Positions 6,316 to 32,148 of a stretch of DNA of 64,000 nucleotides are shown piece by piece (within the stretch, counting starts at the first letter, position 1; each line of letters starts with the position of its first letter). The stretch covers positions 124,001 through 188,000 of the forward strand of contig JAURZE010000005.1 in assembly GCA_030653545.1 (NCBI GenBank). Reading direction: 5' to 3'. The notes under the pieces are model-generated. The model had not been told where the DNA came from, did not search any database, and was given only the letters and a program-made list of their open reading frames with translations. The translations under genes were made by a program, and so were the position numbers. The stretch is from Nitrospira sp. (lineage in GTDB: Bacteria > Nitrospirota > Nitrospiria > Nitrospirales > Nitrospiraceae).

Positions 6316-6380
6316 GGGATGATGATGCTGACCGTAGACGATGAGGGCGCATCCTGAGTCGTCCTGCGGCTGTAACCTGG

Positions 6381-6671
6381 TTGCGAGATCGATGCTCTGA
6401 CGAGAGGGGTGCTGGCGCATGGTGGTGCGCGCTCCTGGTATTCCAAGGGTTGTTCCTGCTTGACGGCGGCGGGTTCGCCCGGGTGGCGCGCGCGGAGTGG
6501 CGGCTGAGCGGGGAGTCGGATGCGGCCTGGACCGACACAGTGGTGCAGTACTCGGCGGCATTCGCGCAGGCGCTACAGAAAGATCCAAGCTTCCCTACCC
6601 TGGATGTGTCTCTCGTCGGGGGTGTCATCATTCAGGGGGATGTCTTTCGTCGGATATGCCGGAGATCGTAA
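6381..6671 (+). pseudogene. Truncated exported protein of unknown family
   Basis: An open frame of up to 96 codons with a leader-like N-terminus (AWWCALLVFQGLFLLDGG, then ARVARA as a possible cleavage site) and a mature start (EWRLSGESDAAWTDTVVQYS). The frame ends after about 60 mature residues at GDVFRRICRRS. No family was recognised. The first codon would be TTG, with no good ribosome binding site, and the following 590 bases contain no continuing frame, so this is probably the 5' remnant of a longer exported protein. A second, shorter copy of the same leader lies at 893-975. Confidence 0.45.
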
Positions 6672-7257: not shown

Positions 7258-7270
7258 TAAAGGAGAAGCC

Positions 7271-10653: not shown

Positions 10654-10789
10654 CGAACGGCGAGGCATCCCGGGCCGTGTCCCAGCTGCGGCTGATGGGA
10701 ACAGAACCTGTAGGATCGGAGGACATCACGCATGCGCCTGCACACGAGGCTTGCCGGAAGTCAGGTGTCATGGGTATAAAGGCAGTCGT

Positions 10790-11260: not shown

Positions 11261-11272
11261 CTGCGAGGTCTT

Positions 11273-12643
11273 ATGAAAGCGACACGCAAACTAGTGGTAG
11301 TGCTCATACTGACGATCGTGGCGACAGTCGCGGCCGTCGCGCTTCTCGTCAACATCTTCCAGCGCAAGCAGGAGGAACGAACCGGGTTCTTCCGCGTCGT
11401 CGAATTGACCGATGAGACTGATGACCCGGCTGTGTGGGGAAAGAATTTCCCGTTTCAGTATGACGCGTACGCGAGAACCGTCGATCAGGTGCGAACGCGC
11501 TTTGGCGGCAGCGAAGCGATTCCCCGGACCCCGACCGGGGCCGATCCCCGTTCCGTGGTCGCCCAATCCAAGCTTGAAGAGGATCCACGCTTGAAAACCA
11601 TGTGGGCCGGGTATGCCTTCGCCCACGATTTTCGTGAAGAACGGGGCCATGCCTATATGTTGGATGATCAGACCTATACGGAACGCCAGATTGTCGCCAA
11701 GCAGCCGGGAACGTGTCTGCAATGCCACTCGTCGGCCTATACGGCCATGAAGAAGCTCGGCGAGGGGGACCTCACCAAGGGTTTCGAGAAGATGAACCGT
11801 CTGTCGTATGGCGACGCGCGTCCCTTGGTCACCCATCCGGTCTCCTGTATCGATTGCCACGCGCCCGATACGATGCAACTTCGCGTCACGCGCCCCGCCT
11901 TCATCGAAGGCCTGCGGGCGCTCAAGGAGCATGAGGGGGTTCAGAACTATGACGTCAATAAGATGGCGACCAGACAGGAAATGCGCTCCTTCGTCTGCGG
12001 CCAGTGCCATGTGGAATACTACTTCAAGGGTCCGGAAAAACGGTTGGTCTATCCCTGGGCCAACGGTCTCCGGGTCGACGAGATCCTGGCCTACTACGAC
12101 GAGACGCAATTCAAAGACTGGATACATGCCGAGACCGGGGCGCCTGTGCTGAAGGCGCAGCACCCGGAATTCGAGATGTGGAACCAGGGCATCCATGCCC
12201 GCTCGGGGGTCGCCTGCGCCGATTGCCACATGCCGTACAAGCGCGAAGGGGCGATGAAGATCAGCGACCATCATATCCGCAGTCCGCTGTTGAATATCAA
12301 TCGGGCGTGCCAGACGTGCCACAAGTGGCCGGAGGCGGAGCTGAAGGATCGTGTCGAGACGATTCAGCACCGGACCTTTGAGTTACGCAATCGGGCGATG
12401 GACGCGATCGTGGCGCTGATCCGCGATCTGGCCGCGGCCCGGAAAGGCGGCCGAGGCGACGGCGCACTCGCGCCCGCGCAAGCGCTTCAGCGGAAGGCGC
12501 AGTTCATGGTGGATTTCGTGGAAGCGGAAAATTCGATGGGGTTTCATGCCCCCCAGGAAGCCGCGCGGATTCTGGGTGAGGCGATCGACTACGCCCGTCA
12601 GGGACAATTGGCCGTGAGAGAAGATGCTGGACCGAAGCACTAG
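11273..12643 (+). CDS. nrfA: Cytochrome c nitrite reductase catalytic subunit NrfA (pentahaem, CxxCH at haem 1)
   Basis: A 456-residue periplasmic ammonia-forming nitrite reductase (nitrite plus six electrons to ammonium). Residues 7-29 form an N-terminal signal or anchor segment. Five haem sites are at about residues 148 (CLQCH), 192 (CIDCH), 242 (CGQCH), 315 (CADCH) and 346 (CQTCH), and their spacing matches NrfA. The first, the active-site haem, is CxxCK in E. coli; here it is CxxCH, as in a known subgroup of NrfA enzymes. Calcium-site residues appear conserved (Glu and Tyr after CGQCH in VEYYF; K-x-Q in LKAQHPEFE), as does the catalytic His in that last motif. It forms an operon with nrfH. 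The product may serve as an electron sink under low oxygen or for detoxification. Confidence 0.94.
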   Translation: MKATRKLVVVLILTIVATVAAVALLVNIFQRKQEERTGFFRVVELTDETDDPAVWGKNFPFQYDAYARTVDQVRTRFGGSEAIPRTPTGADPRSVVAQSKLEEDPRLKTMWAGYAFAHDFREERGHAYMLDDQTYTERQIVAKQPGTCLQCHSSAYTAMKKLGEGDLTKGFEKMNRLSYGDARPLVTHPVSCIDCHAPDTMQLRVTRPAFIEGLRALKEHEGVQNYDVNKMATRQEMRSFVCGQCHVEYYFKGPEKRLVYPWANGLRVDEILAYYDETQFKDWIHAETGAPVLKAQHPEFEMWNQGIHARSGVACADCHMPYKREGAMKISDHHIRSPLLNINRACQTCHKWPEAELKDRVETIQHRTFELRNRAMDAIVALIRDLAAARKGGRGDGALAPAQALQRKAQFMVDFVEAENSMGFHAPQEAARILGEAIDYARQGQLAVREDAGPKH

Positions 12644-12645
12644 CA

Positions 12646-12796
12646 GATGCTGAAAAGGTCCGCCAGCGGCGTTCCCTGCCACCGCCGAAGCGCTTCGCGC
12701 AGGCAGGTCGCATCGCTCAGAGGCTCAACGCACGGCACACAGTGCGTTGAGCCTCTTCGTTCGCTGCGGCCTTGCTGGACGGCCTTGTTGAGCATC
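12646..12796. repeat. Nested inverted-repeat element with a perfect 15-bp inner stem
   Basis: About 150 bases starting just after nrfA form a nested palindrome. The inner stem is perfect: AGAGGCTCAACGCAC (12719-12733) pairs with GTGCGTTGAGCCTCT (12742-12756) across an 8-base loop. The outer ends, GATGCTGAAAAGGTCCGCCAGC at the left and a related inverse ending GAGCATC at the right, are imperfect inverted copies. A further self-complementary CGAAGCGCTTCG lies between. There is no T-run after the inner stem, so it is not a classical terminator, although it may block transcription. The structure suggests a dispersed, non-coding palindromic repeat or a MITE-like element. Confidence 0.6.
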
Positions 12797-13060
12797 GTGC
12801 GTGGCTGTTTGGTGTCGCCTCACACATCACAATTTGCGATGGCTTTAGGAGTCAAAATTGGTTTTCCCGCAGCCTGCTCGACGCGGCCTTCTGACCGCGC
12901 CCTGGCGGTGGGGGTGATGATTCGACGCCTGAACCCCGGTTTCGCAGGTCGTCCGATCCGCCTTCTGCAAACGGCACGACTAGCCTGTCGCTCGGCGACG
13001 GTCGCACGGCGGGGCCAGCCATCACGAAGGTATTGAAGGAAATGGATATTCAGTGGTTTT
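12797..13060. other. Intergenic stretch with no recognisable gene
   Basis: This segment follows the inverted repeat and precedes the ppsA fossil. A short forward frame (12824-13036) and overlapping reverse frames exist, but none resembles a protein family, has a good ribosome binding site or shows convincing codon use. No promoter or RNA structure was identified. Confidence 0.4.
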
Positions 13061-13214
13061 AGCGTCTGCGGGGCCACAGGGGTGAAGAGGAAGCGACTAC
13101 TCGGAACGTTCGCAGTTCCTGGTGGAGGAGGGGGATCGACAGCCCCTCTCCCTTAATTCCGAGACCGTCATGAACATCACCAACACGGTTCTCACGATCG
13201 AAGCGGCCTCGTGA
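13061..13214 (+). pseudogene. Fossil 3' end of a second PEP synthase gene
   Basis: The final 150 bases before the third USP cluster match the 3' end of the ppsA at 8230. The frame reads SDYSERSQFLVEEG, then LSLNSETVMNITNTVLTIEA and a natural TGA, against SDYPEFAQFLVEQG and LSLNPDSVFNTTAAVLAVER in the intact gene. Around GIDS an added G and an added CC shift and restore the frame, so the fragment has drifted without selection. Upstream similarity fades at the ICGQAP region (13067-13090). In the intact locus a USP precedes ppsA; here the fossil precedes a USP, suggesting that a USP-pps unit was once repeated. Confidence 0.75.
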
Positions 13215-13275
13215 GAAATAAAGGGCTAGTTCTGCATTGAGCGTCCAGAAGCAAACCGGCCATGAGGGGAATAGC

Positions 13276-14190
13276 ATGAAAGCGGCAACGAAGAAAGCCA
13301 CGGCCTGCCTGCTGTTACCGACGGACTTTCAGCAACCGGCTCGGCGAGCATTCAACTATGGGGTCAAGTTTGCGCGTCTGCTCGGGCTTCGAATGGAGAT
13401 CCTGCATGTGATCAAGACCCCGTCCGACAGGTCAGCCCCCCCGATTGACAGCCGCTATCTGAGATCCCTTAAGACGTCGGCGATGCTCGATCTGGGACGG
13501 CTGGCGCGAATCGCGACGGAAGCTGGAGTTCAGGTCGAGCCGTGCCTGCAATTCGGAGTTCCCGATGCCTGTATCTTGCGACAGGCGAATCATGCGCATG
13601 TCGAGATCATCGTCATGGGGACCGAAGGACGTGCGGGATGGGATCGCTTGCGTCTCGGCAGCACGGCGCACCGCGTTGTTTCTCAGACCCCCTGCCCGGT
13701 ACTGGCTGTTCATGGAGGGCTTGCCGGAGATGCCGCTCGCCACCCTGCCCGAGTGAAGCTGGAGCGGCTGCTGGCGGCGACGGATTTTTCGCCTGACGCG
13801 GATCAAGCGCTGCAGATTGTTTCCACGCTGGCGAGGTTGACGCAGGCCAAGGTCTGTGTCGTGCATGTTGCCGGTAAGGGGATGGGCAGGAAGAACGGGG
13901 AGCGGAAACTGAACGTCCTGCTGGACGGACTCCGGCGACAAGGCCTTGCGGTCGAAGGTGTCTGCCTTCCGGGCGAGCCGGTAGAGACGATTCTAAGCCA
14001 GGCGGCCGGATGGGAAGCCGACCTCATTTCGGTTGGCACGCAAGGCCGGCGGGGACTGTCGCGATTGATATTGGGCAGCGTGGCCGAAGGCGTCTTGAGA
14101 CGGGCCGGTTGCCCTGTCTTGGTCGTCAAGCACGTGTCGCCGCTCATTCAGACGGGTGCTTCCCCTGAGCGGCGGCACAAAAACGCATGA
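13276..14190 (+). CDS. Two-domain universal stress protein (UspA family)
   Basis: A 304-residue tandem UspA protein. Domain one (about residues 8-150) begins [20 protein letters not shown] and ends in [20 protein letters not shown]. Domain two (about 160-290) begins [15 protein letters not shown] and ends in [20 protein letters not shown]. Both nucleotide loops look intact. The ATG follows GAGGGGAATAGC. The stop overlaps the antiporter start by ATGA (14187-14190), so this USP heads a four-gene ion-transport operon (antiporter, P-type ATPase, DUF6868). It is more divergent from the two other USPs than they are from each other and lacks their shared C-terminal tail. Confidence 0.92.
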
Positions 14191-15701
14191 CGCTCACGAT
14201 CGAATATCTCTTGCTCGGGGCGTCTGTGCTGCTGCTGCTGAGCGTGATCGCGAGCAAAGCTTCCGGTCGCCTGGGTGTCCCGGTGCTGCTGTTGTTCCTC
14301 ATCATCGGGATGCTCGCGGGCTCCGACGGGCCCGGGGGCATTCACTTCGACAATCCGTGGCTCGCCCAGTCGCTCGGCGTCGTCGCGTTAGTGTTCATCC
14401 TGTTTGCGGGCGGGTTGGACACGGAATGGGCGAGCGTTCGCTCGCAACTCGGAAGAGGCGTGATGCTGTCCACGGTGGGTGTGGCGATCACGGCCGGTCT
14501 GGTCGCCTTGTTCGCGACGACGATCCTGGGGATGTCATGGCCGGAGGGGGTGCTGATCGGCGCCATCGTCTCCTCGACCGACGCGGCAGCGGTATTCGCC
14601 GTGATGCGGTCGCGATATGTGAGTCTCCGCGGTCCGTTGACGCCGCTCCTCGAACTCGAGTCCGGCAGCAACGACCCGATGGCGGTCTTTCTCACGATCG
14701 GGATGATCAGCCTGATCACCGGCGCCTCTTCGTCGGTGGCCGACCTGGTTCCGATGTTCATTCGTCAGATGGTGGTCGGCGCAGCCATCGGGTACGGTAT
14801 GGGCAGGTTGATGGTGGTGCTTGTCAACCGGCTGCGGTTGGAATACGACGGGCTGTACCCGGTGTTGACCCTGTCCCTGGTTCTGCTGATCTATAGCGGG
14901 AGCGCCTGGCTGGGGGGCAATGGGTTTCTGGCCGTCTATCTGGCCGGGTTGATCATGGGGAACAGCGATTTCATCCACAAGCGCAGCCTGCTGCGGTTTC
15001 ATGACGGACTGGCCTGGCTGATGCAGATCGCCATGTTTCTGACGCTGGGGTTGCAGGTGTTTCCGGCGCAACTCGTGCCGGTCGCCGGAACGGGACTGTT
15101 GCTGGCGCTCTTTCTGATGATCGTGGCCCGGCCTGCTGCCGTCTTCATGACACTCGGGTTCACGACGCTGACGCTGCGAGAGACAACGATGGTGGCCTGG
15201 GTCGGCTTGCGAGGGGCCGTACCGATCATTCTCGCCACATTCCCGCTCCTCGCGGGCATTCCCCAAGCTACGCTGATTTTCAACCTGGTGTTTTTCATCG
15301 TGCTGATGTCCGTCCTGCTCCAGGGCACGTCGATTCCGCTGGTCGCGCGCTGGCTCAAGGTGGATGAGCCGCTGCAGCGCCGTCTCAATGCCTCGCCAGT
15401 CTGGAATGCGCCGACCGGTCTCAAAAGCGGACTGGTCGAAATGACCATCCCAGAACCTTCCGTGGTGGTCGGTGAGCGGCTCATCGATATCGGTCTGCCC
15501 AAGTCCACGCTCGTCATCTTGATCGGGCGGAAGGGGCAATGCTTCGTTCCCGACGGCAGCACGGTGCTGGAAGCGAACGATTCGCTGTTGGTCTTCACCG
15601 ATCAAGCCTCATCCTTCCGACTCCGCGCCCTGCTTGACGCCAGTCGTCACGTGGCGGAGGAGAGTCCCTCAAAGGGGCAAGGAGGGGCCGTCGTCTCGTG
15701 A
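14187..15701 (+). CDS. CvrA/NhaP2-type K+(Na+)/H+ antiporter with C-terminal RCK_C domain
   Basis: A 504-residue CPA1-family antiporter. Residues 1-385 form a membrane domain of about 12-13 helices, including [23 protein letters not shown] (the conserved Asp region) and [17 protein letters not shown] cytoplasmic TrkA-C/RCK_C domain occupies about residues 410-490 ([14 protein letters not shown], then [10 protein letters not shown]). That layout matches CvrA/NhaP2 proteins, which exchange K+ or Na+ for protons and are gated through the RCK_C domain. Translation is probably coupled to the upstream USP by the ATGA overlap. The P-type ATPase follows 20 bases downstream. Substrate specificity cannot be read from sequence. 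Confidence 0.9.
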
Positions 15702-15721
15702 AAGACAAAAGGAGAGGAATA

Positions 15722-18523
15722 ATGGAGAACGCTCAGCGCGAACGTGATGTGCCGTCACAGGCCTCGATGGGCAGCCACCACCATCTGCCTGCCCACGAGG
15801 TGGTGCTGTTGCTCGAAACCGACCTGGCGAAAGGCCTGTCCTCCGAGGAGGCGGCGCGGCGGCTGGAACGATTCGGCCCGAACATCCTTCCGAAATTCAG
15901 GCGCCATGGTCCGCTGGTGCGATTTCTCTTTCAGTTTCACCACCCGCTGATCTATGTGCTGCTCGCGGCGACCGCTGTCACGGCATTCTTGGACGAGTGG
16001 GTTGATGCGGGGGTGATTTTCGGCGTTGTTCTGGTAAACGCCATCGTCGGGTTCATTCAGGAGTCGCGTGCGGAGGCGGCGCTCGATGCCCTCGCGTCCA
16101 TGATGAAGACCGAAGCCAGAGTCCGGCGGGACGGACAGACGGTCCGGGTGCCCTCCGAGGACATCGTGCCCGGGGATGTGGTGCTGCTGGAATCCGGCGA
16201 CAAGGTCCCGGCCGATCTGCGGCTGACGAGAGTTCGTGAATTGCGGGTGGACGAGTCCGCGCTGACCGGAGAATCGGTGCCAGTGGAAAAGACCGATCAT
16301 GTCCTGCCACCCGAGACGGTCGTCGCGGACCGCAAGAACATGGTCTTTTCCGGCTCCCTCGTCACCTATGGACAGGGGACCGGCGTGGTGGTTGGGACCG
16401 GTGTGGCCACCGAGCTGGGGCGGATCCACCAGTTGATCGGCGAGACCACCGAGATCTCGACGCCGCTGACGAAGAAACTCGCCTCCTTCAGCAAAGTCCT
16501 GACCGTGGCGATTCTCGGACTCGCGGCTGTGACGTTTGCTCTTGGCTTGTGGCGCGGGCAGGCGGTCACGGAGGTGTTCATGGCGGCGGTCGCACTCGCG
16601 GTGGCTGCGATTCCGGAAGGGCTGCCGGCGGCGGTCACCATCACGTTGGCGATCGGGGTCAGCCGCATGGCCCGGCGCAATGCCATCATCCGCAAGTTGC
16701 CGGCGGTGGAAACGCTGGGCAGCACCACCGTCATCTGTTCGGACAAGACCGGCACCTTGACGAAGAACGAGATGACCGTTCAGGCGATCTTTGCCGGAGG
16801 GGAGTCCTTCGAGGTGGACGGCGCCGGCTATGAGCCGGCCGGTCGCATACTGCGTGGGGGCCAGGCGATCGAATCCACGGCCAAACCCGCGTTGCGCGAA
16901 TGTCTCCTGGCCGGGGTGCTCTGTAACGATGCGGAGAATGTGGAGCGAGACGGGCGATGGACCATCGTGGGTGACCCGACCGAAGGCGCCTTGCTGGTGG
17001 CAGCGAAGAAAGCCGGGATTGATGTAAACCAGCTCAACGCGCAGTTCCCGCGCGTCGATGCCATCCCGTTCGAGTCTGAACGCCAATACATGGCGACTTT
17101 GCACCAAGCCGAAGGGGGACGTGAGGCCGTGGTCTATCTCAAGGGCGCGGTCGAGCGAACCCTTCGCCTCTGCGACCAGGCCCTCGCCGAGGACGGAACG
17201 GACCGGGCCCTTGACGCCCAGGCCGTGCTCACCCGAGTGGAGACTTATGCCGGACGAGGGCTGCGCGTGCTGGCCTTGGCCCGCAAATCCGTTCCGGCCG
17301 GGATGGCGATGCTGACGGACCGCGAGGTGGAAGGCGGCCTGACGTTTTTGGGACTCCAGGCCATGATGGACCCGCCGAGGCCGGAGGCCGTCGCGGCGGT
17401 GCGCGCCTGCCAGCAGGCGGGGATTGCGGTCAAAATGATCACGGGCGATCACGCGCTCACGGCCCGGGCGATCGCACAGCAGATCGGATTGGACGGTCGG
17501 AAAGATCACCAGAACGGGGAATTGATCGCGATGACCGGCCAGGAGTTGGCGGCCATTCCCCAGGCAGAGCTTGCGGACGCCGCCGACCGCACGGCGGTCT
17601 TCGCACGGGTCTCGCCCGAACAGAAGTTGCGGCTGGTCGAGGCCTTACAGGCGCGGCGCCATGTGGTGGCCATGACCGGCGACGGCGTGAACGATGCGCC
17701 GGCCTTGAAGCAGGCGGATATCGGCGTGGCGATGGGGCGTGGCGGGACCGAAGTAGCGAAGGAAGCCGCCGACATGGTGCTGACCGACGACAACTTCGCC
17801 TCCATCGAAGCGGCGGTCGAGGAAGGCCGGTGCGTGTTCGACAATCTCACGAAGTTCATCGTCTGGACGTTGCCGACCAACATGGGGGAAGGGCTGGTCC
17901 TGCTCACGGCGATTGCGTTCGGGGTGGTGCTTCCCATCCTCCCGGTGCAAATCCTCTGGATCAATATGACGACGGCGGTGGCGCTGGGACTGATGCTGGC
18001 CTTCGAACCCACGGAGCCAGGCATCATGATGCGGCCGCCGCGCGATCCCGGCCAGCCGATCCTGACGGGCGTGCTGATCGAACGGATCGTCCTGGTGTCG
18101 TTCTTGATGCTGGCCGGCGCCTACGGCGTGTTTCTCTGGGAGCTGGATCGGACTGAATCGATCCTCGCGGCCCGCACGGCGGCGGTGAACGTGATCGTCA
18201 TGGCGGAGCTGTTCTACCTGTTCAATTGCCGTTCGCTGGAGCTCACCATGTTCCATGTCGGCCTGTTCAGCAATCCCTGGATCTGGCGCGGGGTGACCGT
18301 CATGACCGCGCTGCAACTCCTGTTCACCTATGTCCCGGCCATGAACCGGTTGTTTCATACGGCCCCGATCGACGGGTCCGCCTGGGGGCTGGTTCTGGCG
18401 GCGGCCGTGACCGTGTACGTCGTGGTAGAAGTGGAGACCTGGCTGCGGTTGCAGTGGAACCGGCGGACAGCGCCCGGCGCGCCGACCAGGAGGAGCACGG
18501 ATGACGCTCAACACGCTGCGTGA
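15722..18523 (+). CDS. P2-type cation-transporting ATPase (Pma1-like, non-canonical M6 site)
   Basis: A 933-residue P-type ATPase with an N-terminal cation ATPase domain (residues 17-80), actuator domain with LTGESVPVEK, M4 motif AAIPEGLPAAVT, phosphorylation site CSDKTGTLT (Asp341) and hinge TGDGVNDAPALKQADIG. M6 reads ILWINMTTAVALG, where Ca2+ pumps have NLVTDG; the Asp that binds Ca2+ there is absent, so transport of Ca2+ by the SERCA mechanism is doubtful. Compare the canonical pump at 35810. ATG 15722 is chosen (AAAGGAGAGGAATA upstream); a GTG at 15698 overlapping the antiporter stop is less likely. The operon context is USP, antiporter and a small DUF6868 membrane protein. The ion transported is unknown (H+, Na+ or K+ possible). 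Confidence 0.92.
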   Translation: MENAQRERDVPSQASMGSHHHLPAHEVVLLLETDLAKGLSSEEAARRLERFGPNILPKFRRHGPLVRFLFQFHHPLIYVLLAATAVTAFLDEWVDAGVIFGVVLVNAIVGFIQESRAEAALDALASMMKTEARVRRDGQTVRVPSEDIVPGDVVLLESGDKVPADLRLTRVRELRVDESALTGESVPVEKTDHVLPPETVVADRKNMVFSGSLVTYGQGTGVVVGTGVATELGRIHQLIGETTEISTPLTKKLASFSKVLTVAILGLAAVTFALGLWRGQAVTEVFMAAVALAVAAIPEGLPAAVTITLAIGVSRMARRNAIIRKLPAVETLGSTTVICSDKTGTLTKNEMTVQAIFAGGESFEVDGAGYEPAGRILRGGQAIESTAKPALRECLLAGVLCNDAENVERDGRWTIVGDPTEGALLVAAKKAGIDVNQLNAQFPRVDAIPFESERQYMATLHQAEGGREAVVYLKGAVERTLRLCDQALAEDGTDRALDAQAVLTRVETYAGRGLRVLALARKSVPAGMAMLTDREVEGGLTFLGLQAMMDPPRPEAVAAVRACQQAGIAVKMITGDHALTARAIAQQIGLDGRKDHQNGELIAMTGQELAAIPQAELADAADRTAVFARVSPEQKLRLVEALQARRHVVAMTGDGVNDAPALKQADIGVAMGRGGTEVAKEAADMVLTDDNFASIEAAVEEGRCVFDNLTKFIVWTLPTNMGEGLVLLTAIAFGVVLPILPVQILWINMTTAVALGLMLAFEPTEPGIMMRPPRDPGQPILTGVLIERIVLVSFLMLAGAYGVFLWELDRTESILAARTAAVNVIVMAELFYLFNCRSLELTMFHVGLFSNPWIWRGVTVMTALQLLFTYVPAMNRLFHTAPIDGSAWGLVLAAAVTVYVVVEVETWLRLQWNRRTAPGAPTRRSTDDAQHAA

Positions 18524-21370: not shown

Positions 21371-22534
21371 ATGACACAGAAGAGAACGTTGCTCACCCTC
21401 GAAGCACTGGCCGAGTTGGCATTAGCTCAGCAGCCGCCTTGTCTCTCGCTGTACCAGCCGACCCATCGGCGGCATCCCGAGAATCAGCAGGACCCGATCC
21501 GGTTTCGCAATCTCCTCAAGGAGATGGAGACATCGCTGCGGCAAAAGTATCCGGGCGTCGAGACCCGGCTCCTTCTGGAACCGTTTGAAGCCCTCGCTCA
21601 CGATCATGACTTCTGGAATCATACGCTGGATGGATTGGCCGTGCTAGGCGGGTCGGGCTTGTTTCGAGTGTTTCCGCTGCAGCGCACGGTGGCTGAATTG
21701 GCAGTCGTAGCTGACAGTTTTCACACCAAACCCTTGCGACGTTATCTTCAATCGGTTGATCGCTACCAGGTGCTCGGGCTGAGCCTGCGCAAGATTCAAC
21801 TCTTCGAAGGGAACCGCGACGCACTCGACGAGATCGATCCGGCCCCGGAAGTAGTGCGGACGATCACCGATGATTTGGGCAATGAGCTGACCGAGCCGAA
21901 CCAGTCGGTTGCCTCCTACGGCAGTGGCGGAGGGGTGAGCCGGCCCACGCCCCACAGCCAAGGCGGGCCGAAGGACGTGGAAGACATTGACGCGGACCGG
22001 TTCTTCCGTGCCATCGACCGCGCGGTGCTGGAGCACCATTCCAAGCTGTCAAGCCTGCCGTTGATCCTGGCGGCGTTGCCGGAGCATCATCATCGTTTCC
22101 ACCAGGTCAGCCACAACCCATTTCTGGCGCCCGAGGGGATCATGGTCAACTCCCACTCCGTGCCGGAAGCAGACCTTCGGGCCCTCGCCTGGCAGGTCGT
22201 TGAACCGCAGTACCACGCGCGGCTGACCAAGCTAAGCGAGGAATTCGAACAGGCCCGGTCGAAGGGGTTGAGCAGTGATGACTTGGCGCAGGTTGCACAG
22301 GCGGCTGCCGCCGGACGGGTCGCGGCGCTTCTGATCGAAGCCGACCGCCAGATTGCCGGACGGCTGGACAGTGCGACCGGTCAGGTCGAGTGCGCTGACC
22401 TGAGTCACCCGCAGGTCGATGACCTGCTCGACGATCTGGGCGAGCTGGTTGAAAAGATGGGCGGTCGGGTCCTGGTTGTTCCGATCGAGCGGATGCCGGG
22501 GCAGACGGGACTGGCAGCTACCTACCGACATTGA
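21371..22534 (+). CDS. baeRF3-type bacterial archaeo-eukaryotic release factor-like protein
   Basis: A 387-residue protein matching the baeRF group of bacterial relatives of archaeal/eukaryotic release factor 1. Recognised features are the N-terminal CLSLYQPTHRR, an RFRNLLKEME helix region, LRKIQLFEGNRDALDEID, a central RFFRAIDRAVLEHH, and the C-terminal Rossmann-like part with AAAGRVAALLIEADRQIAGR, then DDLLDDLGELVEKMGGRVLV and ERMPGQTGLAATYRH. Members are predicted to act on ribosomes or peptidyl-tRNA; biochemical proof is sparse. A Gly-rich loop (YGSGGGVSRP) lies at about residues 178-187, but a GGQ motif is not present. It is followed 28 bases later by an HPF/RaiA-like gene, suggesting a ribosome stress operon. 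Confidence 0.8.
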   Translation: MTQKRTLLTLEALAELALAQQPPCLSLYQPTHRRHPENQQDPIRFRNLLKEMETSLRQKYPGVETRLLLEPFEALAHDHDFWNHTLDGLAVLGGSGLFRVFPLQRTVAELAVVADSFHTKPLRRYLQSVDRYQVLGLSLRKIQLFEGNRDALDEIDPAPEVVRTITDDLGNELTEPNQSVASYGSGGGVSRPTPHSQGGPKDVEDIDADRFFRAIDRAVLEHHSKLSSLPLILAALPEHHHRFHQVSHNPFLAPEGIMVNSHSVPEADLRALAWQVVEPQYHARLTKLSEEFEQARSKGLSSDDLAQVAQAAAAGRVAALLIEADRQIAGRLDSATGQVECADLSHPQVDDLLDDLGELVEKMGGRVLVVPIERMPGQTGLAATYRH

Positions 22535-22562
22535 AGAACCCATACTCACGAAGGAGAATCGC

Positions 22563-22934
22563 ATGCAGATCCAAGTGAATACCGACCGTAACATCGAAGG
22601 GCACGAGGCGCTGGTCGCTCAGGTCCGTGGCGTCGTGAAAAGCGCCCTGAGCCGGCATGAAGATTTCATCACGCGAGTGGAGGTCCACCTGAGCGATGAG
22701 AACAGCAACAAGAAGGGTGGTAATGACGACATCCGTTGCGTGATGGAAGCTCGCCTTGAGGGCCGCCAGCCCGCCGCAATCACGCACCAGGCCGCAACCG
22801 TGGAACAAGCCGTCGACGGCGCGACCGATAAGTTGATTAGCTTGATCGAGAGCACTCTCGGGCGTCTGCGTGATCAAGCGATACGCAGGACTGACCCGCC
22901 TTTGTCCGGGCCGGAGCTCACTGAGCCGTCATGA
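22563..22934 (+). CDS. HPF/RaiA-family ribosome-associated protein
   Basis: A 123-residue protein of the ribosome hibernation factor fold: MQIQVNTDRNIEGHEALVAQ at the start, then FITRVEVHLSDENSNK and RCVMEARLEGRQPAAITHQA, and a long C-terminal helix (VDGATDKLISLIESTLGRL). Short members bind the 30S decoding region and silence ribosomes during starvation. An acidic, Asn-rich loop (SDENSNKKGGNDD) separates two strands, a variant seen in proteins annotated generally as HPF/RaiA family. GAAGGAGAATC precedes the ATG. It is probably co-transcribed with the baeRF3-like gene. Confidence 0.8.
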   Translation: MQIQVNTDRNIEGHEALVAQVRGVVKSALSRHEDFITRVEVHLSDENSNKKGGNDDIRCVMEARLEGRQPAAITHQAATVEQAVDGATDKLISLIESTLGRLRDQAIRRTDPPLSGPELTEPS

Positions 22935-23100
22935 GCGTCACGACGGCGAGTGTGTGTTGAATGATCGGCGAAGCCGGAATGTCCAACGGTCCTCCGCGGG
23001 CAGGCGTCTAATTCTGGCATTCCTGGCCCTGGTCCTCGGCACCTCCGATCTGGTGCGCCATACTTTCACCGTGGAAGAACCGCGCATCGAGATGGCGACG

Positions 23101-23262
23101 ATCCCGGCCGATGTGCGATTGGTTGAAGCTATTTTGCTCAAGATCGAAGAAGCAACGCTTACCGATGAGTCTGTGCCGGTGGAATAATAGGCGCGGTCGC
23201 TCACTGGGGATCCTTTCAACAAGGCCTACAAGTGGACGCTGAGCTATGGTCTGCGGAATCTG
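23101..23262 (+). pseudogene. Fossil of a P-type Ca2+-ATPase actuator region
   Basis: The frame reads IPADVRLVEAILLKIEEATL, then TDESVPVE, two stops (TAA TAG), then ARSLTGDPFNKAYKWTLSYG. Against the intact pump at 35810 this aligns with VPADVRLVETVQLKVEEAAL, TGESVPVEKQARPLT and GDRLNMAYKGTLVTYG, in a single frame. The Lys-Gln codons have become stop codons and six codons are lost. The essential TGES has decayed to TDES. About 160 bases are recognisable. The preceding bases (22990-23100) read as a hydrophobic leader then EEPRIEM, echoing QEPRIEI in the cupredoxin at 33483, so the fragment may be a patchwork. Confidence 0.8.
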
Positions 23263-23344: not shown

Positions 23345-24679
23345 ATGTTGTGGAAAGACGGCATGACGAGACACACAGCGAACTACCCGAACTCTCCAGT
23401 CGGCAGCGAAGAGATGCTGGACGCGCTTCAGCACCACGCGTTCGAATATTTCCTGCATCGGACCAATCCGAAAAACGGTCTGGTGGCCGACAGGACGAAA
23501 CCGGACGCCCCCGCGAGTATCGCCGCTGTCGGGTTTGCGCTGGCGTCCTATCCGGTCGGTGTCGAGCGCGCGTGGATAACGCGAGCCGAAGCCGTGAAGC
23601 GAACTCTGGCGGCATTACGGTTTTTCTGGAAAAGCCCGCAAGGCACGTCGGCACGCGCCACGGGCTACAAAGGGTTCTACTACCACTTCCTCGATATGAA
23701 GACCGGACGGCGGGCCGGGAAGTGTGAGCTTTCCACGGTCGACACCGGTTTCCTGCTCGCGGGAATGCTTGCCGCCGCAACCTATTTTGATCAGGAGAGT
23801 GCAGACGAGCAGGAGATCCGCACGCTGGCCGATGCGCTCTATCGCCGCACCAACTGGCAGTGGGCTCGTCATGGTAAAGCGACGATCATACACGGGTGGA
23901 AGCCGGAAAGCGGGTTTTTGAAGTACCGCTGGGAAGGCTACGACGAGGCTCTGCTCCTGTACGCACTGGGTCTTGGGTCGCCGACGTATCCGCTGCCGAA
24001 GGAAAGCTATTCGGCATGGATTTCAAGCTACGAGTGGAAGAAGATTTATGGGCACGAGTACCTCTATGGCAGCTCACTCTTCATCCATCAATACTCGCAC
24101 ATGTGGATCGACTTCCGCGGGATTCAGGACGCCTTCATGCGCGGCAAGGGCATCGACTACTTTGAGAACAGCCGGCGGGCAACCCACGTCCAGCAGCAGT
24201 ACGCCGTGCATAACCCTTTTGAATTTGTGGGCTATAGCCAATACTTCTGGGGATTGACGGCGACCGATGGGCCCGGCTGGACGGTGCGAAAGGTCAAGGG
24301 TGTCGAGCGCTCATTTTTTGATTATGCAGCGCGCGGCGTGCCGTACGGCCCGGACGACGGGACCATTGCACCGTGGGCGGTGGTCGCCTCATTGCCCTTT
24401 GCGCCAGAAATCGTCCTGCCGACGGTGTTGAATTTTCAGAAGGTCTACCCGCAGGTGATGGGCCGGTATTGTTTCAAGTGCAGCTTTAATTTGACCTTCC
24501 CGCACAAGGCGCATGGCCGGCTCGGCTGGAACTCGCCCTACCACTACGGGATCAACGCGGGTCCGGTCGTGTTGATGTGCGAGAACTTCCGGTCAGAATT
24601 ACTCTGGCGATTGACGAAGCGGTGTCCCTATATCGTCACGGGGTTGCGCCGGGCGGGATTTGTGAACGGATGGTTATGA
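23345..24679 (+). CDS. Glycoamylase-like (PF10091-type) glucoamylase-family protein
   Basis: A 444-residue (alpha/alpha) barrel-type protein. It begins with a helical part ([39 protein letters not shown]) and continues with [100 protein letters not shown] and [20 protein letters not shown]. This order is typical of the glycoamylase-like family related to GH15 enzymes and beta-1,2-glucan-acting proteins; the substrate is unknown. No signal peptide is seen, so it is probably cytoplasmic. Starts at 23345 or 23363 are both possible. It is one of four carbohydrate-active enzymes in the window. Confidence 0.8.
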
Positions 24680-24689: not shown

Positions 24690-26547
<1,858 letters not shown>

Positions 26548-26559
26548 GGCCCACACCAG

Positions 26560-26973
26560 ATGACAGACATGCAGACGCTACGCATGAATCTTAAAGTCCT
26601 TTTGCCATTCCATGTGTTTGCCGAGAAGGCCGGCGTGACCCGCATTGTTGCGGAAACCCGAGAGGGTTCGTTTGGACTTTTGCCGCATCGACTCGACTGC
26701 GTGGCCGCGCTTGCGCCGGGGATTCTGATCTACGAAGACGAATCTGAGGGCGAGGTGTACGTCGCCGTGGATGAAGGGGTGCTGATCAAGACCGGCCCGG
26801 AGGTACTCGTTTCCGTACGCAACGCCATAGCCGGAACGGACCTCCGCCAACTGCGCGAGGCGGTGGAGCGGGAATTTCTGAGCTTAAACGAACGAGAGCA
26901 GAGTGTGCGCTCGATGCTGGCGAAAATGGAAAGCGGTTTCATCCGCCGTTTGGCGGACGTTCATCATGACTGA
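26560..26973 (+). CDS. atpC: N-type ATPase epsilon subunit
   Basis: A 137-residue epsilon-like subunit: an N-terminal beta-sandwich (LKVLLPFHVFAEKAGVTRIV; REGSFGLLPHRLDCVAALAP; VYVAVDEGVLIKTGPEVLVS) and a C-terminal helical part (LREAVEREFLSLNEREQSVR). The GSFGLLPHRLD motif replaces the GxxGILPGHAP of ordinary epsilon subunits, as expected for N-ATPases. It lies 12 bases after atpD and overlaps atpQ by 8 bases. Confidence 0.9.
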   Translation: MTDMQTLRMNLKVLLPFHVFAEKAGVTRIVAETREGSFGLLPHRLDCVAALAPGILIYEDESEGEVYVAVDEGVLIKTGPEVLVSVRNAIAGTDLRQLREAVEREFLSLNEREQSVRSMLAKMESGFIRRLADVHHD

Positions 26974-27304
26974 CGAACGGCAACATCAACCGTTGAAGCC
27001 GAAGGCGCCGCTCAGTCAGGAGGTCGGCGCGAAGGCGGCACGCAAACTCCGGGCGCAGCGCCATGTTACGCGGACCGTTTGGTTTGGCCTGGGCATGATG
27101 GGGCTGGTCGGCTGGTCAGTGGCGATTCCGACGCTGCTCGGCGCAGCGCTTGGTCTCTGGTTGGACAGACACTATCCGGGAGGCCGATCCTGGACGCTGG
27201 CCCTGTTGCTTGTCGGCCTCGCAATCGGATGCTGGAATGCGTGGTATTGGGTGGCGAAGGAAGACAAGGAGATACGAGAGGAACAGGAGGATACTAATGA
27301 ATGA
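26966..27304 (+). CDS. atpQ: N-type ATPase accessory membrane protein AtpQ (AtpZ/AtpI family)
   Basis: A 112-residue protein with two membrane helices (about residues 40-63, WFGLGMMGLVGWSVAIPTLL, and 75-97, WTLALLLVGLAIGCWNAWYW) and a hydrophilic N-terminus. The GAALGLWLDRHYPG motif between helices is typical of the AtpZ/AtpI family. In N-ATPase operons this protein, with AtpR, is thought to help assemble the c-ring. ATG 26966 overlaps the end of atpC. Confidence 0.88.
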   Translation: MTDERQHQPLKPKAPLSQEVGAKAARKLRAQRHVTRTVWFGLGMMGLVGWSVAIPTLLGAALGLWLDRHYPGGRSWTLALLLVGLAIGCWNAWYWVAKEDKEIREEQEDTNE

Positions 27305-27611
27305 AACGGTGAAATTGGTCCTGGCTTTGATGGCCGGCGTGTCGCTCGGAGCGATTTTTTTCGGCGGCCTTTGGTGGACCGTGCGCAGGGGCCTCTCCTC
27401 GGAACGTCCGGCGCCTTGGTTCTTCGTCAGCCTCCTGCTGCGAACGAGCATCGTCCTGGCCGGGTTTTATTTTGTCTCGGGCGGTCAGTGGGCCCGGCTG
27501 CTGGCCTGTCTCCTTGGGTTTGTCATTGTGCGTTTCATCGTGACGCGGCCTGCAGACCCGCCAGTTAAACACCACAACTCCTCAGCGAAGGAGGCTGGGT
27601 ATGCGCCTTAG
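27297..27611 (+). CDS. atpR: N-type ATPase accessory membrane protein AtpR
   Basis: A 104-residue membrane protein with three hydrophobic segments (VKLVLALMAGVSLGAIFFGG; WFFVSLLLRTSIVLAGFYFV; WARLLACLLGFVIVRFIVT). An Arg within the second segment (LLLRTS) is a hallmark of AtpR, proposed in N-ATPases to contact the carboxylates of subunit c during ring assembly. It overlaps atpQ by 8 bases and atpB by 11. AtpR is found only in N-ATPase operons, which makes it the best identifier of this cluster. Confidence 0.88.
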   Translation: MNETVKLVLALMAGVSLGAIFFGGLWWTVRRGLSSERPAPWFFVSLLLRTSIVLAGFYFVSGGQWARLLACLLGFVIVRFIVTRPADPPVKHHNSSAKEAGYAP

Positions 27612-28302
27612 TCCCGACGAAATTATCTTCTGGCAGCAGGGGTTCCTTAAACTCAACGCCACCATTGCATTCACATGGGGGCTGATGCTTGTGCTGGCCG
27701 TCGGCGCCACGCTCATCACTCGCAAACTTTCCATCGGCCTGAAACGTGCCCGCTGGCAGAATCTTCTCGAAATCAGCGTCATCGCCATCGAGAAGCAAAT
27801 TGAAGAGATCGGCCTGAGTCAGCCGCAGAAATATCTGGGCTTTCTGGGCACACTCTTCTTGTTCGTCGCCGCCGCCAGCCTCTGTACCGTCATTCCCGGC
27901 TACGAGCCGCCGACTGCTTCGCTTTCGACCACGGCGGCACTTGCGCTGTGCGTGTTTGTGGCCGTACCTCTTTTCGGCATTGAGGAGCGGGGTTTGGGCG
28001 ACTACCTTAAGTCCTACGCGCAGCCGACGGTCATCATACTGCCGTTCAATATCATCAGCGAAATTTCCCGCACGCTGGCCCTGGCCGTCCGCCTGTTCGG
28101 CAATATGATGAGCGGGGCAATAATCATCGGTATTCTGCTCACCATTACTCCCTTCATCTTCCCGATCATCATGACGGCGCTCGGCTTGCTCACCGGCATG
28201 GTGCAGGCCTACATCTTCAGCATCCTCGCAGCCGTGTACATCGCGGCCGCCACGCGAGCCCGTAAGTCCAAGCCTGAACTTGGGCAAAACATTGAAGCAT
28301 GA
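27601..28302 (+). CDS. atpB: N-type ATPase subunit a
   Basis: A 233-residue membrane stator subunit that provides the ion half-channels. Five or so helices are visible. The key segment ISRTLALAVRLFGNMMSG holds the essential Arg (in VRLFGN) that faces the c-ring carboxylate. The last helices (LLTGMVQAYIFSILAAVYIA) match the family, with the conserved Gln in VQAYIF. It is shorter than the 270-residue E. coli subunit, as is usual for N-ATPases. It overlaps atpR and ends 26 bases before atpE. Confidence 0.93.
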   Translation: MRLSPDEIIFWQQGFLKLNATIAFTWGLMLVLAVGATLITRKLSIGLKRARWQNLLEISVIAIEKQIEEIGLSQPQKYLGFLGTLFLFVAAASLCTVIPGYEPPTASLSTTAALALCVFVAVPLFGIEERGLGDYLKSYAQPTVIILPFNIISEISRTLALAVRLFGNMMSGAIIIGILLTITPFIFPIIMTALGLLTGMVQAYIFSILAAVYIAAATRARKSKPELGQNIEA

Positions 28303-28328
28303 ACTACGATTCAACAAAAGGAGATGCG

Positions 28329-28610
28329 ATGGATAGCATGACGCTTATTGCAGTGGCCTCTATTGTCACCGCCGGCATTACCACAGGTCTCGGCACGATG
28401 GCTCCGGCACTGGGAGAAGGGAAGGCGGTCGCGATAGCGCTGAGCTCCCTGGCCCAGCAGCCTGATGCCTCCGCGACCATCACCCGGACCTTGTTCGTGG
28501 GCCTGGCGATGATCGAGTCTACAGCCATCTACTGTTTCGTGGTTTCGATGATTCTCATCTTCGCAAACCCGTTCTGGAACCACGTCATCGCCCAAGCCGG
28601 GGGAAAGTAA
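28329..28610 (+). CDS. atpE: N-type ATPase subunit c
   Basis: A 93-residue hairpin protein forming the rotor ring. Helix one ends GTMAPALGEGKAV and helix two holds GLAMIESTAIYCF. Ion-site residues are Glu30 (at the position of Gln32 in the Na+-binding Ilyobacter subunit), Glu63, Ser64 and Tyr68. The E-S-x3-Y pattern is a Na+ signature, but the second carboxylate at Glu30 is typical of N-ATPases, at least one of which has been reported to be proton-specific, so the coupling ion is open. ATG 28329 is used (AAAAGGAGATGCG upstream); a longer frame from 28299 overlaps atpB. Confidence 0.93.
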   Translation: MDSMTLIAVASIVTAGITTGLGTMAPALGEGKAVAIALSSLAQQPDASATITRTLFVGLAMIESTAIYCFVVSMILIFANPFWNHVIAQAGGK

Positions 28611-28613
28611 TCG

Positions 28614-29543
28614 ATGTTCATCGACTGGTTCACCGTCGTTGCGCAGGCGCTCAACTTTCTCATCCTCGTGTGGTTGATGAAGCGCTTCCTCTACAAGCCC
28701 ATCCTCGATGCCATCGACGCGCGGGAAAAGCGTATCGCCACGGAACTTGCGGACGCCGCCGAAAAAAAGGTCGAAGCCAAAAAGGAGCGTGATGAGTTCA
28801 AGTACAAGAACGATGAGTTCGAGAAGCAGCGCGACGAGCTCATGAGCCAAGCGACGGACGAGGCAAAGGTCGAACGTCAGCGCCTCCTCGATGAGTCGCG
28901 GCAGGCAGCCGACGCCCTCCGTATTAAACGACAGGACGCGTTGAAACGCGAACAACAGAAACTCAACGACGAAATCGCCCGACGAACCCGGGAGGAAGTG
29001 TTTGCCATTGCGCGAAAGACGCTGTCGGACCTCGCCGGGGCCAGTCTGGAAGAACGCATGAGCGAGGTATTCACGCGCCGCGTGCGAGAGCTGAACGGTG
29101 AGGCGAAGGAAGGTCTAGCGAAGGCATTGAAAACATCGACCGACCCGGCGCTCGTATGCAGCGCCTTCGAGCTGCCATCGGAGCAACGAGCCGCGATGCA
29201 ACAGGCGCTCAACGAAACCTTCTCCGCTGAAATCCACGTCCGTTTCGAGACCGCGCCGGACGTGATCAGCGGCATCGAACTCACTGCGAACGGACGAAAG
29301 GTCGGTTGGAGCATCGCGGATTATCTCGTGTCACTGGAAAAGAGTCTCGACGAATTGCTGAAAGACCAGTCCAAACTCCAGACGCAAGTGGAGACGAAGC
29401 GTACGTCCGAATCTGGACCAGACGCGTCCAAGCCGGAGCCTATGGTTGTGTCTAAAGACGCAATCAAGGAGCAGCTCAAACATGAAGTCGATGTTCAGCC
29501 GAAGTCTGGGACTAAGCCTGCGGATCCTGAGGAAGAAAAATGA
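28614..29543 (+). CDS. atpF: N-type ATPase subunit b with delta-like C-terminal part
   Basis: A 309-residue peripheral stalk protein. One N-terminal membrane helix (residues 5-22, [18 protein letters not shown]) precedes a long charged coiled coil (about 40-145). A C-terminal region (about 150-250; [20 protein letters not shown], then [20 protein letters not shown]) resembles the delta subunit that binds F1. No separate atpH gene exists in the operon, as in other N-ATPases. The final 50 or so residues are a Lys/Pro/Glu/Ser-rich tail ([26 protein letters not shown]), resembling the tails on alpha and beta. It overlaps atpA by ATGA. Confidence 0.92.
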
Positions 29544-31183
29544 GCACGCAGCCTAACTCTTTGCAACGGATCTTCGACTGCGCCTTCGCTGACCTAATCC
29601 AGGCACGCGAAACCTTCACGCCGCGACTGGCGCCGCACGAGGTAGGCACGGTCACCGGCGTCTCCACGGGCATCGCCCGGGTCTCCGGCCTTCCCAGCGT
29701 GGGCTTTGACGAGCTGGTGAAATTTCCAGGCGATGTGTTCGGCATCGCATTCAACGTGGATGAGAACGAAATCGGCGTCGTGCTGCTCGGCGAATACTGG
29801 CATCTGCACGCAGGCGATCACGTCGAGCGCACGGGTCAGGTCATGGACGTAGCTGTGGGAGACGAATTGGTGGGCCGCGTCATTGACCCGCTCGGCCGGC
29901 CGCTTGATGGATATGGGCCGGTAGCTGCCACAGAGCGCCTGCCCATCGAACGTCCCTCCGCGCTGATCTTGGACCGCGCGCCAGTCAGCGTGCCGCTCCA
30001 AACCGGACTGAAGGTCATTGACGCGCTCATTCCTATCGGTCGCGGCCAGCGCGAGTTGATTCTGGGCGACCGGCAGACGGGCAAAACCGCCATTGCGATC
30101 GACACCATCATCAACCAGCGGGACCAGAATGTCCTGTGCGTCTATTGTGCCATTGCCCAGCGGGCGTCCGGCGTGGCGAAAGTAATCGCTGCGCTGCGCG
30201 AAAAAGGTGCGATGGATTACACCGTGGTGGTGGTCACCGAGGGCAACGACCCGCCGGGCCTCGCTTACATCGCTCCGTACGCCGCCACCAGCATCGCGGA
30301 GCATTTCATGGAGCGAGGCCGCGATGTGCTGATCGTATACGATGATCTCACCCATCATGCCCGCGCCTATCGCGAGCTGTCTCTGTTGCTGCGGCGTCCG
30401 CCCGGTCGCGAAGCGTTCCCCGGCGACATCTTTTATATTCACTCGCGGCTGCTGGAGCGCGCTACGCACTTGCGCGAGGAACTCGGTGGAGGATCGCTAA
30501 CGGCGTTGCCGATTATCGAGACCGAAGCGCAGAACATCTCCGCCTACATCCCGACCAATCTGATCTCCATTACGGACGGGCAGATCTACCTCTCACCGTC
30601 GCTGTTCCAATTGGGAGTGCTGCCGGCGGTCGAGGTGGGGAAATCCGTGTCGCGCGTTGGCGGTAAGGCGCAACGGGCGGCCTACCGCGCGGTGGCAGGC
30701 GACCTCAAGCTCGCCTACTCGCAGTTCGAGGAACTCGAGACCTTTGCCCGGTTCGGGGCCCGCCTGGATGACGACACTCGCATGATCATCGAACATGGAC
30801 GGAGAATCCGCGCCTGCCTCAAGCAACCAGAATTCGCTCCGGTGTCCGTACCGGCGCAAATCGCCGTATTGGTGGCATTGACCGCGGAACTCTTCGACCG
30901 CATACCGCTTGACCAGATGACAATTGCCGAGCAGGCTGTGCGCGCGGCAGCGGCGGACATTCCGGCGGAGGTATGCGGGCGATTCGAAACCGGCAAAACG
31001 TTGAGCGATGAAGATCGCAAAACGATTATCGAAATCGCCCGCGCATCGCTCGTCCGTTTCCAGTCTATGCCAGGGTCAAAACCCGAACCCAAAGTCGAAC
31101 CCACGTCTGAGGCGGACGCCAAACCGAGGCCCGGGTCGACGACAAAGCTGAAGTCAGAGGTGGAGGCCAAGGAGCCGTCATGA
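29540..31183 (+). CDS. atpA: N-type ATPase alpha subunit
   Basis: A 547-residue non-catalytic F1 subunit. It shows the P-loop [78 protein letters not shown] and [20 protein letters not shown]. The ordinary alpha is about 510 residues; here a 38-residue C-terminal tail rich in Lys, Pro and Glu ([18 protein letters not shown]) is added after [10 protein letters not shown]. The start overlaps the atpF stop and the stop overlaps atpG (ATGA at both ends). Confidence 0.95.
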
Positions 31184-32148
31184 GCGACACAACAGCGAGC
31201 CTGCGTCGCAAGATCAACAGTGCTGGAGATCTCCAGTCCGTGGTCCGGACGATGAAAGCCCTGGCCGCCGCGAGCATCGGACAGTACGAACAATCGGTGC
31301 GCGCGTTGGCCGACTACTATCGGACAGTGGAATTAGGGTTGGCCGCATGCTTTCGAGAAATGGAGCCGAGCGTCTCGACGGTGGAACGGAAAAGACAAAC
31401 CGATGCGGGTGCCATTGGCGCTGTCGTGTTCGGTTCCGACCAGGGTTTGGTGGGCCAGTTTAATGATGTGGTGGCCGATCATGCGGTGAAAATCCTGGGA
31501 GATCTGACGGACACACCGCAGATCTGGGCGGTCGGCGAGCGCGTTCATGAGCGCTTGATGGACAGGGGCCTGCCGCTGATCGGCCTTTTTACCGTGCCGA
31601 ATTCCGTGAAAGCCATTACTCCACTCGTCGGCCAGATCCTCACGGAAAGCGAGGCGCACCGCAGCCATGGCGAGATTGTCGAACTTCACCTCTTCTACAA
31701 CCACCCCTCATCCGGAGCGGTGTACGTGCCTGTCAATCAGCAGCTGCTGCCGTTGGACGAAACCTGGCGCCGCAAGCTGGCCGAGCTTTCCTGGCCCATG
31801 AACAACTTGCCCCAGGTCGTGGGTGGCAACACCACGACCTTACGGGCGCTCATCCGCGAATATCTTTTTGTCTCGCTCTTCCGGGCGTGCGCCGAATCCC
31901 TTGCGAGCGAGAACGCGAGCCGCCTAGCGGCGATGCAGCGCGCCGATAAGAACATCGACGAGCTGCTGGAGGACTTCAACGGGACATTCCATCGGTTGCG
32001 CCAGGGTGGCATTGACGAGGAATTGTTCGACGTCATCTCCGGATTTGAAGCGCTGGCGAACGGGGGGAAACCCGCGGAGCGAGGATTCACGCCAAAGAGA
32101 ATTGAGCCAGGATATTCGAATCGACTGACGAAAACAAAGGCTGGATAG
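31180..32148 (+). CDS. atpG: N-type ATPase gamma subunit
   Basis: A 322-residue central-shaft subunit. The N-terminal helix has [20 protein letters not shown], the N-ATPase version of the usual gamma start, and the C-terminal helix has [20 protein letters not shown], matching the conserved gamma C-terminus; a Rossmann-like middle part has [17 protein letters not shown]. After the helical end a polar extension of about 25 residues follows ([14 protein letters not shown]). It is the last gene of the operon. No hairpin with a T-run was seen in the 75 bases to the next gene. Confidence 0.92.

Follow-up and report, generated by a model that had tools for sequence, protein, structure and literature searches.

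A Balon-HPF gene pair of Nitrospira whose close relatives occur inside N-type ATPase operons

We report that several close relatives of a Balon-HPF gene pair, found in a Nitrospira sp. on a stretch of 64,000 nucleotides (the window), are located inside operons for N-type rotary ATPases, in the order atpA-Balon-HPF-atpG. Our preferred reading, to which we assign a probability of roughly 0.6, is that the pair belongs to a clade of ribosome-silencing pairs that live in N-ATPase operons and are co-expressed with the pump under ion or energy stress, and that the pair of the window has left such an operon. As the adjacency of Balon and RaiA genes was published in 2019 and 2024, the pair alone is not new: baeRF-HPF gene neighborhoods were reported together with a proposed non-catalytic insertion into the A site alongside HPF (Burroughs and Aravind, PMC6514570), and Balon genes are described as "most frequently" adjoining RaiA (PMC10901736). 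The new part is the N-ATPase operon context of the close relatives. The literature matches listed included no report of a link between Balon-HPF and N-ATPases; Dibrova 2010, the first description of the operon, which may mention extra genes, falls outside the scope of these matches. An earlier, sequence-only reading of the window was right in outline, although its interpretation was not new and missed the N-ATPase context.

Results

The pair is encoded by two genes on the same (+) strand, separated by a gap of 28 bp, with the following features:

21371-22534, + strand: Balon/baeRF_family3 homologue, 387 aa, without GGQ (Pfam PF18845, phmmer, AlphaFold model)
21461-21478, + strand: HP motif THRRHP, residues 31-36, aligned with THREHP of Psychrobacter urativorans Balon
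21893-21967, + strand: low-confidence loop, residues 175-199, roughly at the place of the aeRF1 GGQ loop (pLDDT < 50; loop alignment)
22563-22934, + strand: short HPF/RaiA (S30AE), 123 aa, starting 28 bp past the Balon homologue (PF02482, phmmer, structure model)

The first protein matched PF18845 (baeRF_family3) with 155.5 bits (cut-off 31.5) and, by phmmer, the Balon of P. urativorans (8rd8_B; E = 2e-15). Its AlphaFold model, with its own relatives as input (mean pLDDT 83.9), is predicted to have the three-domain, aeRF1-like fold; the top PDB match by Foldseek was ribosome-bound Balon (8rdw_B; E = 3e-24, TM 0.64-0.67, 392 alignment columns), and the matches ranked 2 to 5 were Balons too. A motif search of the 387-aa protein found neither GGQ nor NIKS. 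The second protein matched PF02482 (Ribosomal_S30AE) with 33.7 bits (cut-off 23.7) and, by phmmer, the HPF on the Acinetobacter baumannii ribosome (7m4z_v; E = 6e-20). Its model, also built with its own relatives as input (mean pLDDT 84.7), showed the HPF fold, with 7m4z_v as best PDB match (TMt 0.90) and the RaiA of the Balon structure, 8rd8_D, as third (TMt 0.81). As the NCBIfam equivalog cut-offs were missed by both proteins (NF052287, AOC03_06830 family, 174.6 bits against 330; TIGR00741, yfiA, 19.7 bits against 40.9), both are family homologues, not equivalogs, by those models. Searches of the window's genome gave one match to baeRF3 and three to S30AE, and of the latter only the HPF gene described here adjoins the baeRF3 gene. 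Another S30AE gene of this genome (L002, 1243-1797) has a C-terminal extension that, by eye, resembles a cold-shock domain, and adjoins what appears by eye to be a Lon-like ATPase gene.

The sequence-only reading had named a baeRF3-like protein without GGQ and an HPF/RaiA-family gene 28 bases downstream; both identifications stand, and one of its refuting conditions, a lack of match to baeRF models, did not come true in view of the PF18845 score. Its remark that the baeRF families are largely uncharacterised is outdated, as the family includes Balon, for which ribosome-bound structures are available (PMC10901736). The common task on idle ribosomes that it proposed holds, but recycling or rescue is unsupported, given the lack of GGQ and given that the closest solved relatives are hibernation factors. 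Balon has been solved on ribosomes and, after cold shock, close to two thirds of the ribosomes with Balon also carried RaiA (Helena-Bueno et al. 2024, PMC10901736). In our reading, THRRHP would be the HP motif by which Balon contacts the decoding centre according to that paper. THRxHP was present in 14 of 15 N-ATPase-linked Balons and in 54 of 68 other relatives, counts that are biased because one of the two search peptides held the HP motif.

To survey the neighborhoods of related genes, one genome per species was scanned with a Balon alignment, which yielded 250 relatives, and the best 80 were kept. An HPF gene (detected with a profile built on domain envelopes) was located on the same strand and within 250 bp of Balon in 44 of these 80 loci (39 downstream, 5 upstream), including one weak match (L093; E = 4e-9); the pairing is thus not unique to this genome, which was the other refuting condition of the earlier reading. 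HPF was more distant in 3 loci, no HPF was found in 26 loci with > 1 kb of flank on either side, and none was found in 7 loci on short contigs, where the flank is too short to tell. The Balon-HPF pairing is more than chance. Moreover, a clustering of neighbor proteins made independently of the window placed HPF at the top (28 loci in the largest cluster) and alpha/beta ATPase subunits second (14 loci, including L093). Other recurrent neighbors (L022-L101; names given by eye) were an MscS-like channel (11 loci), histidine kinases (10), a DUF2254-like membrane protein (9), P-type ATPases (8) and a PPK2-like kinase (5).

Many phylum names are represented among the best 80 Balon loci (52-76% identity), a sign of extensive lateral transfer, with the caveat that most records in the set are titled MAG. 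Balon is rare in Nitrospirota, occurring in 5 of 148 genomes, the window's own included. Carriage by plasmids or phages was considered and rejected: the best plasmid match was 29.7% identical (11 records) and a single weak phage record was found, matches so distant that the searched collections hold no close relative on a plasmid or phage. In genome G119, a more divergent Balon-like gene whose product lacks the HP motif (L008, 890-2640) is followed 47 bp later by an S30AE-like gene whose product has a C-terminal extension like that of the L002 protein (both labels by eye), apparently a separate pairing.

Of the 80 loci kept as those closest to the window's Balon, 14 have N-type rotary ATPase genes next to Balon, a proportion biased upward because the loci were chosen by similarity to a Balon that itself sits near an N-ATPase. 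The full order atpA-Balon-HPF-atpG was found in nine loci (L022, L025, L028, L035, L053, L056, L069, L074 and L088). With gene starts picked by script, the atpA stop and the Balon start overlap as ATGA in six of the nine (L035, L053, L056, L069, L074 and L088), and the spacing from HPF to atpG ranges from -4 to +10 bp in all nine. Three of these nine records are not titled MAG, i.e., L035 (a Candidatus), L056 (Methyloversatilis sp. XJ19-49) and L088 (Beta proteobacterium AAP65). Partial arrangements were also observed: atpA, a 934-bp gap, Balon and atpG without HPF (L023); atpA and Balon followed by 320 bp up to the contig end, with no HPF found (L029); Balon and atpG with no HPF, and no atpA in the 1.9 kb upstream (L030); and Balon-HPF upstream of atpD, as in the window (L026 and L034). 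In a fifteenth locus, L093, the ATPase is of a divergent alternate type, lies in convergent orientation approx. 1.2 kb away and has an alpha subunit that scored 641.8 bits against a cut-off of 750.5; the alpha subunits of L056 and L022 passed the alternate-F1F0 alpha model.

Published N-ATPase orders place alpha directly before gamma (PMC4154653, PMC11738941). We examined 37 N-ATPase loci from other sources (12 from the Balon-bearing set and 25 from surveys, all from AtpR-positive genomes; fetched stretches of 6.4-19 kb each): none held a Balon match, and atpA and atpG were neighbors, at most 180 bp apart, in all 31 loci showing both. As none of these 37 loci holds Balon, embedding is a minority state.

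In the window, the pair is located upstream of atpD and not between atpA and atpG; the intact N-ATPase operon begins approx. 2 kb downstream, with two ORFs (glucoamylase and a phosphoketolase fragment) in between:

22931-22950, + strand: sequence at and after the HPF stop resembling the start of a decayed atpG piece of a sister genome, G145 (17 of 20 bases alike)
23101-23250, + strand: P-type cation ATPase gene fragment, between HPF and glucoamylase (61% over 57 aa to the P-type ATPase at 35765-38485, E = 7e-12)
23345-24679, + strand: putative glucoamylase (PF10091, 271.6 bits)
24690-25043, + strand: phosphoketolase C-terminal fragment, directly ahead of atpD (PF09363, profile positions 125-202 only)
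24991-32148, + strand: intact N-type ATPase operon atpDCQRBEFAG (NCBIfam alternate F1F0 and Pfam models)

The operon belongs to the N type by its alternate F1F0 subunits (beta, alpha, gamma, B and C each exceeded the cut-off of their NCBIfam model), by AtpR (PF12966, 112.8 bits) and an AtpQ-type protein (PF09527, 62.7 bits) and by its gene order, DCQRBEFAG; ATP-synt_A matched with 142.6 bits. The gene at 26560-26973 we take to be atpC (epsilon) from its place, not from a family model; tblastn matches to it were located at the corresponding place in relatives. Helix 1 of the c subunit contains ALGEGK and helix 2 contains IESTAIY, which fits the EST-Y sodium motif reported for Nitrospirales (PMC12342949). 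Two full-length P-type ATPases are encoded in the window (15698-18523 and 35765-38485). Upstream of the pair, a stress cluster (3044-15701) encodes a Na+/H+ antiporter and three universal stress proteins whose Usp domains are repeated, with a putative PpsA-like ORF in between. Elsewhere in the window's genome, a long frame matches XFP_N (C7; E = 5e-184), and XFP C-terminal matches were also observed in L026, ahead of Balon-HPF, and near the N-ATPase operons of L207, L216 and L236.

A profile search for ATPase remnants covered 138 flanking segments (from the window, G042, G145 and 66 unlinked loci), with 1810 segments drawn from those unlinked loci as controls. Next to five pairs (L032, L042, L058 and L068, all among the 80 loci, and G145), decayed remains of atpA or atpG were located at the place and on the strand that the operon arrangement predicts, direct evidence that these pairs were once inside such an operon; the four loci first classed as unlinked were accordingly re-read as separated pairs. 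In the sister genome G145, where Balon and HPF are each 86% identical to those of the window, an 86-residue internal atpG piece (AtpG residues 153-238, 73%, E = 4e-38) begins at the HPF stop codon, and a full set of N-ATPase subunit matches, with atpA and atpG adjacent, is located 173 kb away. In L032 (Thiocapsa imhoffii), whose genome has no AtpR match, an atpA tail precedes Balon and an atpG head overlaps the HPF stop by ATGA. An atpG head follows HPF in L042 (Marinobacterium sedimentorum) and L058 (Polaromonas glacialis), and an atpA tail is retained in L068, where a single one of three alpha queries matched it and a search with the alpha of the window did not. For the two atpA tails, HMM matches were weak (E = 0.012 and 0.19), with BLAST values of 6e-7 and 5e-6. 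Control matches at i-E < 1 were limited to the ATPase genes of L093, an ATPase-like gene of L096 and one segment of L067; this last segment (1020-1530), approx. 5 kb upstream of Balon, resembles the C-terminal part of N-ATPase gamma. The flanks of the window's pair and of G042 showed no atpA or atpG piece in this profile search. The 20 bases at the HPF stop of the window may be an atpG relic, a match too short to be proof alone; from the sister genome, we infer that the window's own pair was formerly in an N-ATPase operon. Separated pairs survive, and the genome of one of them (L032) has no AtpR match, so that the pair does not depend on the pump.

In the Balon tree, the 15 linked Balons (window included) all fall within a set of 40 rows (SH-aLRT 99), the embedded loci occupy two parts and at least 7 changes between the linked and unlinked state are needed. 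In the ATPase tree, which placed 9 of the 12 loci first labelled embedded (L029, L030 and L035 are missing), the five betaproteobacterial embedded operons form one clade and the other four are mixed with unlinked operons. Both trees are quick ones with many open forks, and 11 rows of the ATPase tree have less than half of the columns. Monophyly of the embedded loci was thus not shown, as they fall in two parts in both trees; one ancient insertion followed by losses and two insertions are both possible.

We also assessed whole-genome co-occurrence, calling AtpR by matches over cut-off and Balon by phmmer in Nitrospirota and by PF18845 over cut-off elsewhere. Balon was found in 3 of 3 AtpR genomes as compared to 1 of 144 others in Nitrospirota (window's genome left out), in 3 of 9 as compared to 8 of 357 in Gammaproteobacteria (three preselected genomes left out), and in 5 of 13 as compared to 12 of 174 in Planctomycetota (centre genome left out). 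Pooled over the three lineages, AtpR and Balon co-occurred in 11 genomes as compared to 1.5 expected (exact p = 1e-8, with genomes treated as independent rather than in a tree-aware manner). The two genes are on different contigs in seven of these 11 genomes and on the same contig in four (18 kb apart in G744, approx. 130 kb or more in G651, G145 and G444); where they share a contig, they are always more than 17 kb apart. One of the 11 genomes, G119, has a Balon-like protein devoid of the HP motif. In the Balon-bearing set, 50 of the 80 genomes were examined and 21 had AtpR; nine of these are the linked loci themselves and one is L093. As N-type ATPases without atpR have been reported for Nitrospiraceae (PMC12342949), AtpR-based counts miss some N-type ATPases.

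Specificity of this co-occurrence to Balon was rejected when phosphoketolase (clear XFP matches only), searched to test for a shared package, was found to co-occur with AtpR as well. In Planctomycetota, phosphoketolase was present in 6 of 13 AtpR genomes as compared to 18 of 174 others (odds ratio 7.4, p = 0.0022; for Balon, odds ratio 8.4, p = 0.0028), and in Nitrospirota, own genome included, in 4 of 4 as compared to 48 of 144 (p = 0.014; for Balon, p = 2.6e-7). Co-occurrence therefore proves no direct link between Balon and AtpR, and as phosphoketolase, AtpR and Balon all lie within approx. 27 kb in G162, the genes partly represent one gene package.

Discussion

Translation is a main consumer of ATP. 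According to our preferred reading, a Balon-type A-site factor and a short RaiA/HPF would jointly put ribosomes to sleep, as their predicted folds, their motifs and the published structures suggest, and their clade would have lived, and in several lineages still lives, as two cistrons inside the N-type ATPase operon. The N-ATPase is a second rotary ATPase that moves laterally. By this energetic logic, the pump would spend ATP on holding an ion gradient while translation is off, sparing ATP; N-ATPases are presumed to be ATP-driven ion pumps for Na+ or H+ (PMC11738941, PMC7784846). Judging by the operon arrangement, co-expression of the pair with the pump is likely; co-expression under ion or energy stress, from a common transcript, would be its most plausible sense. 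The lineage of the window would probably have lost the embedded arrangement when its pair left such an operon, to lie now approx. 2 kb upstream of an intact one. As separated pairs are kept without the pump alongside, the link between pair and pump is more likely regulatory than structural.

We are evenly divided on a further proposal, in which Balon and HPF would belong as genuine cistrons to an N-ATPase operon that spreads laterally, with translational coupling to alpha and gamma, so that one mobile switch would turn pumping on and protein synthesis off and would be the source of the clade's free-standing pairs. Two loci in which Balon is present and no HPF precedes atpG (L023 and L030) speak against our preferred reading.

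The main rival is hitch-hiking: the pair would serve hibernation and its placement in N-ATPase operons would be an accident of lateral transfer, within a mobile stress and energy set (phosphoketolase, P-type ATPases, universal stress proteins) that shares habitats and no common function. The co-occurrence of phosphoketolase with AtpR, the lack of Balon in the 37 N-ATPase loci from other sources and the persistence of pairs without an ATPase all speak for such an accident; the order atpA-Balon-HPF-atpG is nevertheless kept in two parts of both the Balon and the ATPase tree, with ATGA overlaps in six loci, and a neutral insertion between coupled subunit genes would be expected to be lost. We regard hitch-hiking as somewhat unlikely.

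A much smaller chance is left for a Balon homologue that acts in rescue or release, with a conserved His-Gly-rich loop, HG[HQ]GG, replacing GGQ. At about the GGQ position, most relatives carry HHG[HQ]GG followed by RFFRAVD, unlike P. urativorans Balon (the window protein has PHSQGG), and seven relatives have a GGQ string in this loop, a few residues ahead of HHG. However, the window protein has no GGQ, the loop is modelled at low confidence, pairing with HPF points to silencing, and none of the 25 GGQ strings found in 23 relatives represents a conserved motif, 18 of them being close to the C-terminus and 7 within the loop's variable part. That the operon-encoded proteins now serve as assembly, inhibitor or regulatory factors of the N-ATPase itself, as their overlapping coding sequences, placed between the genes for alpha and gamma, might suggest, is the least probable alternative, given the HP motif kept in linked relatives, the predicted ribosome-bound Balon fold of the window protein and the survival of separated pairs next to dead atpA or atpG pieces, including one pair whose genome has no AtpR match.

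Operon embedding with overlapping genes ties together the function of N-ATPases and the natural condition for Balon-type hibernation, pointing to a concrete condition, i.e., ion or energy stress. If our preferred reading is right, a bioenergetic operon would here carry a module for ribosome silencing, which would be unusual.

Comparison with known systems

The P. urativorans Balon (AOC03_06830; 8rd8, 8rdv and 8rdw) shares with the window protein the three-domain aeRF1-like fold, the lack of GGQ, the HP motif and RaiA neighbors, and differs from it by an identity of approx. 23% and by the HHG[HQ]GG loop of most members of the window's clade; an N-ATPase context is absent from the main text of the Balon paper, where the word ATPase occurs 0 times (PMC10901736). 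The mycobacterial Balons Rv2629 and Msmeg1130 (8v9j-8v9l) have a common fold with it by Foldseek and are stress-linked according to the Balon paper, but are only 15-17% identical over the structural alignment. The window's HPF resembles that of A. baumannii (7m4z chain v), a short S30AE protein, with 39% identity over the structural alignment and a TMt of 0.90; it is encoded beside Balon, and relatives of its pair lie inside N-ATPase operons. Finally, the operon of the window agrees with known N-ATPase operons, atpDCQRBEFAG, in passing the alternate-F1F0 models, while a subset of the relatives differs from these in having two hibernation genes inserted between alpha and gamma.
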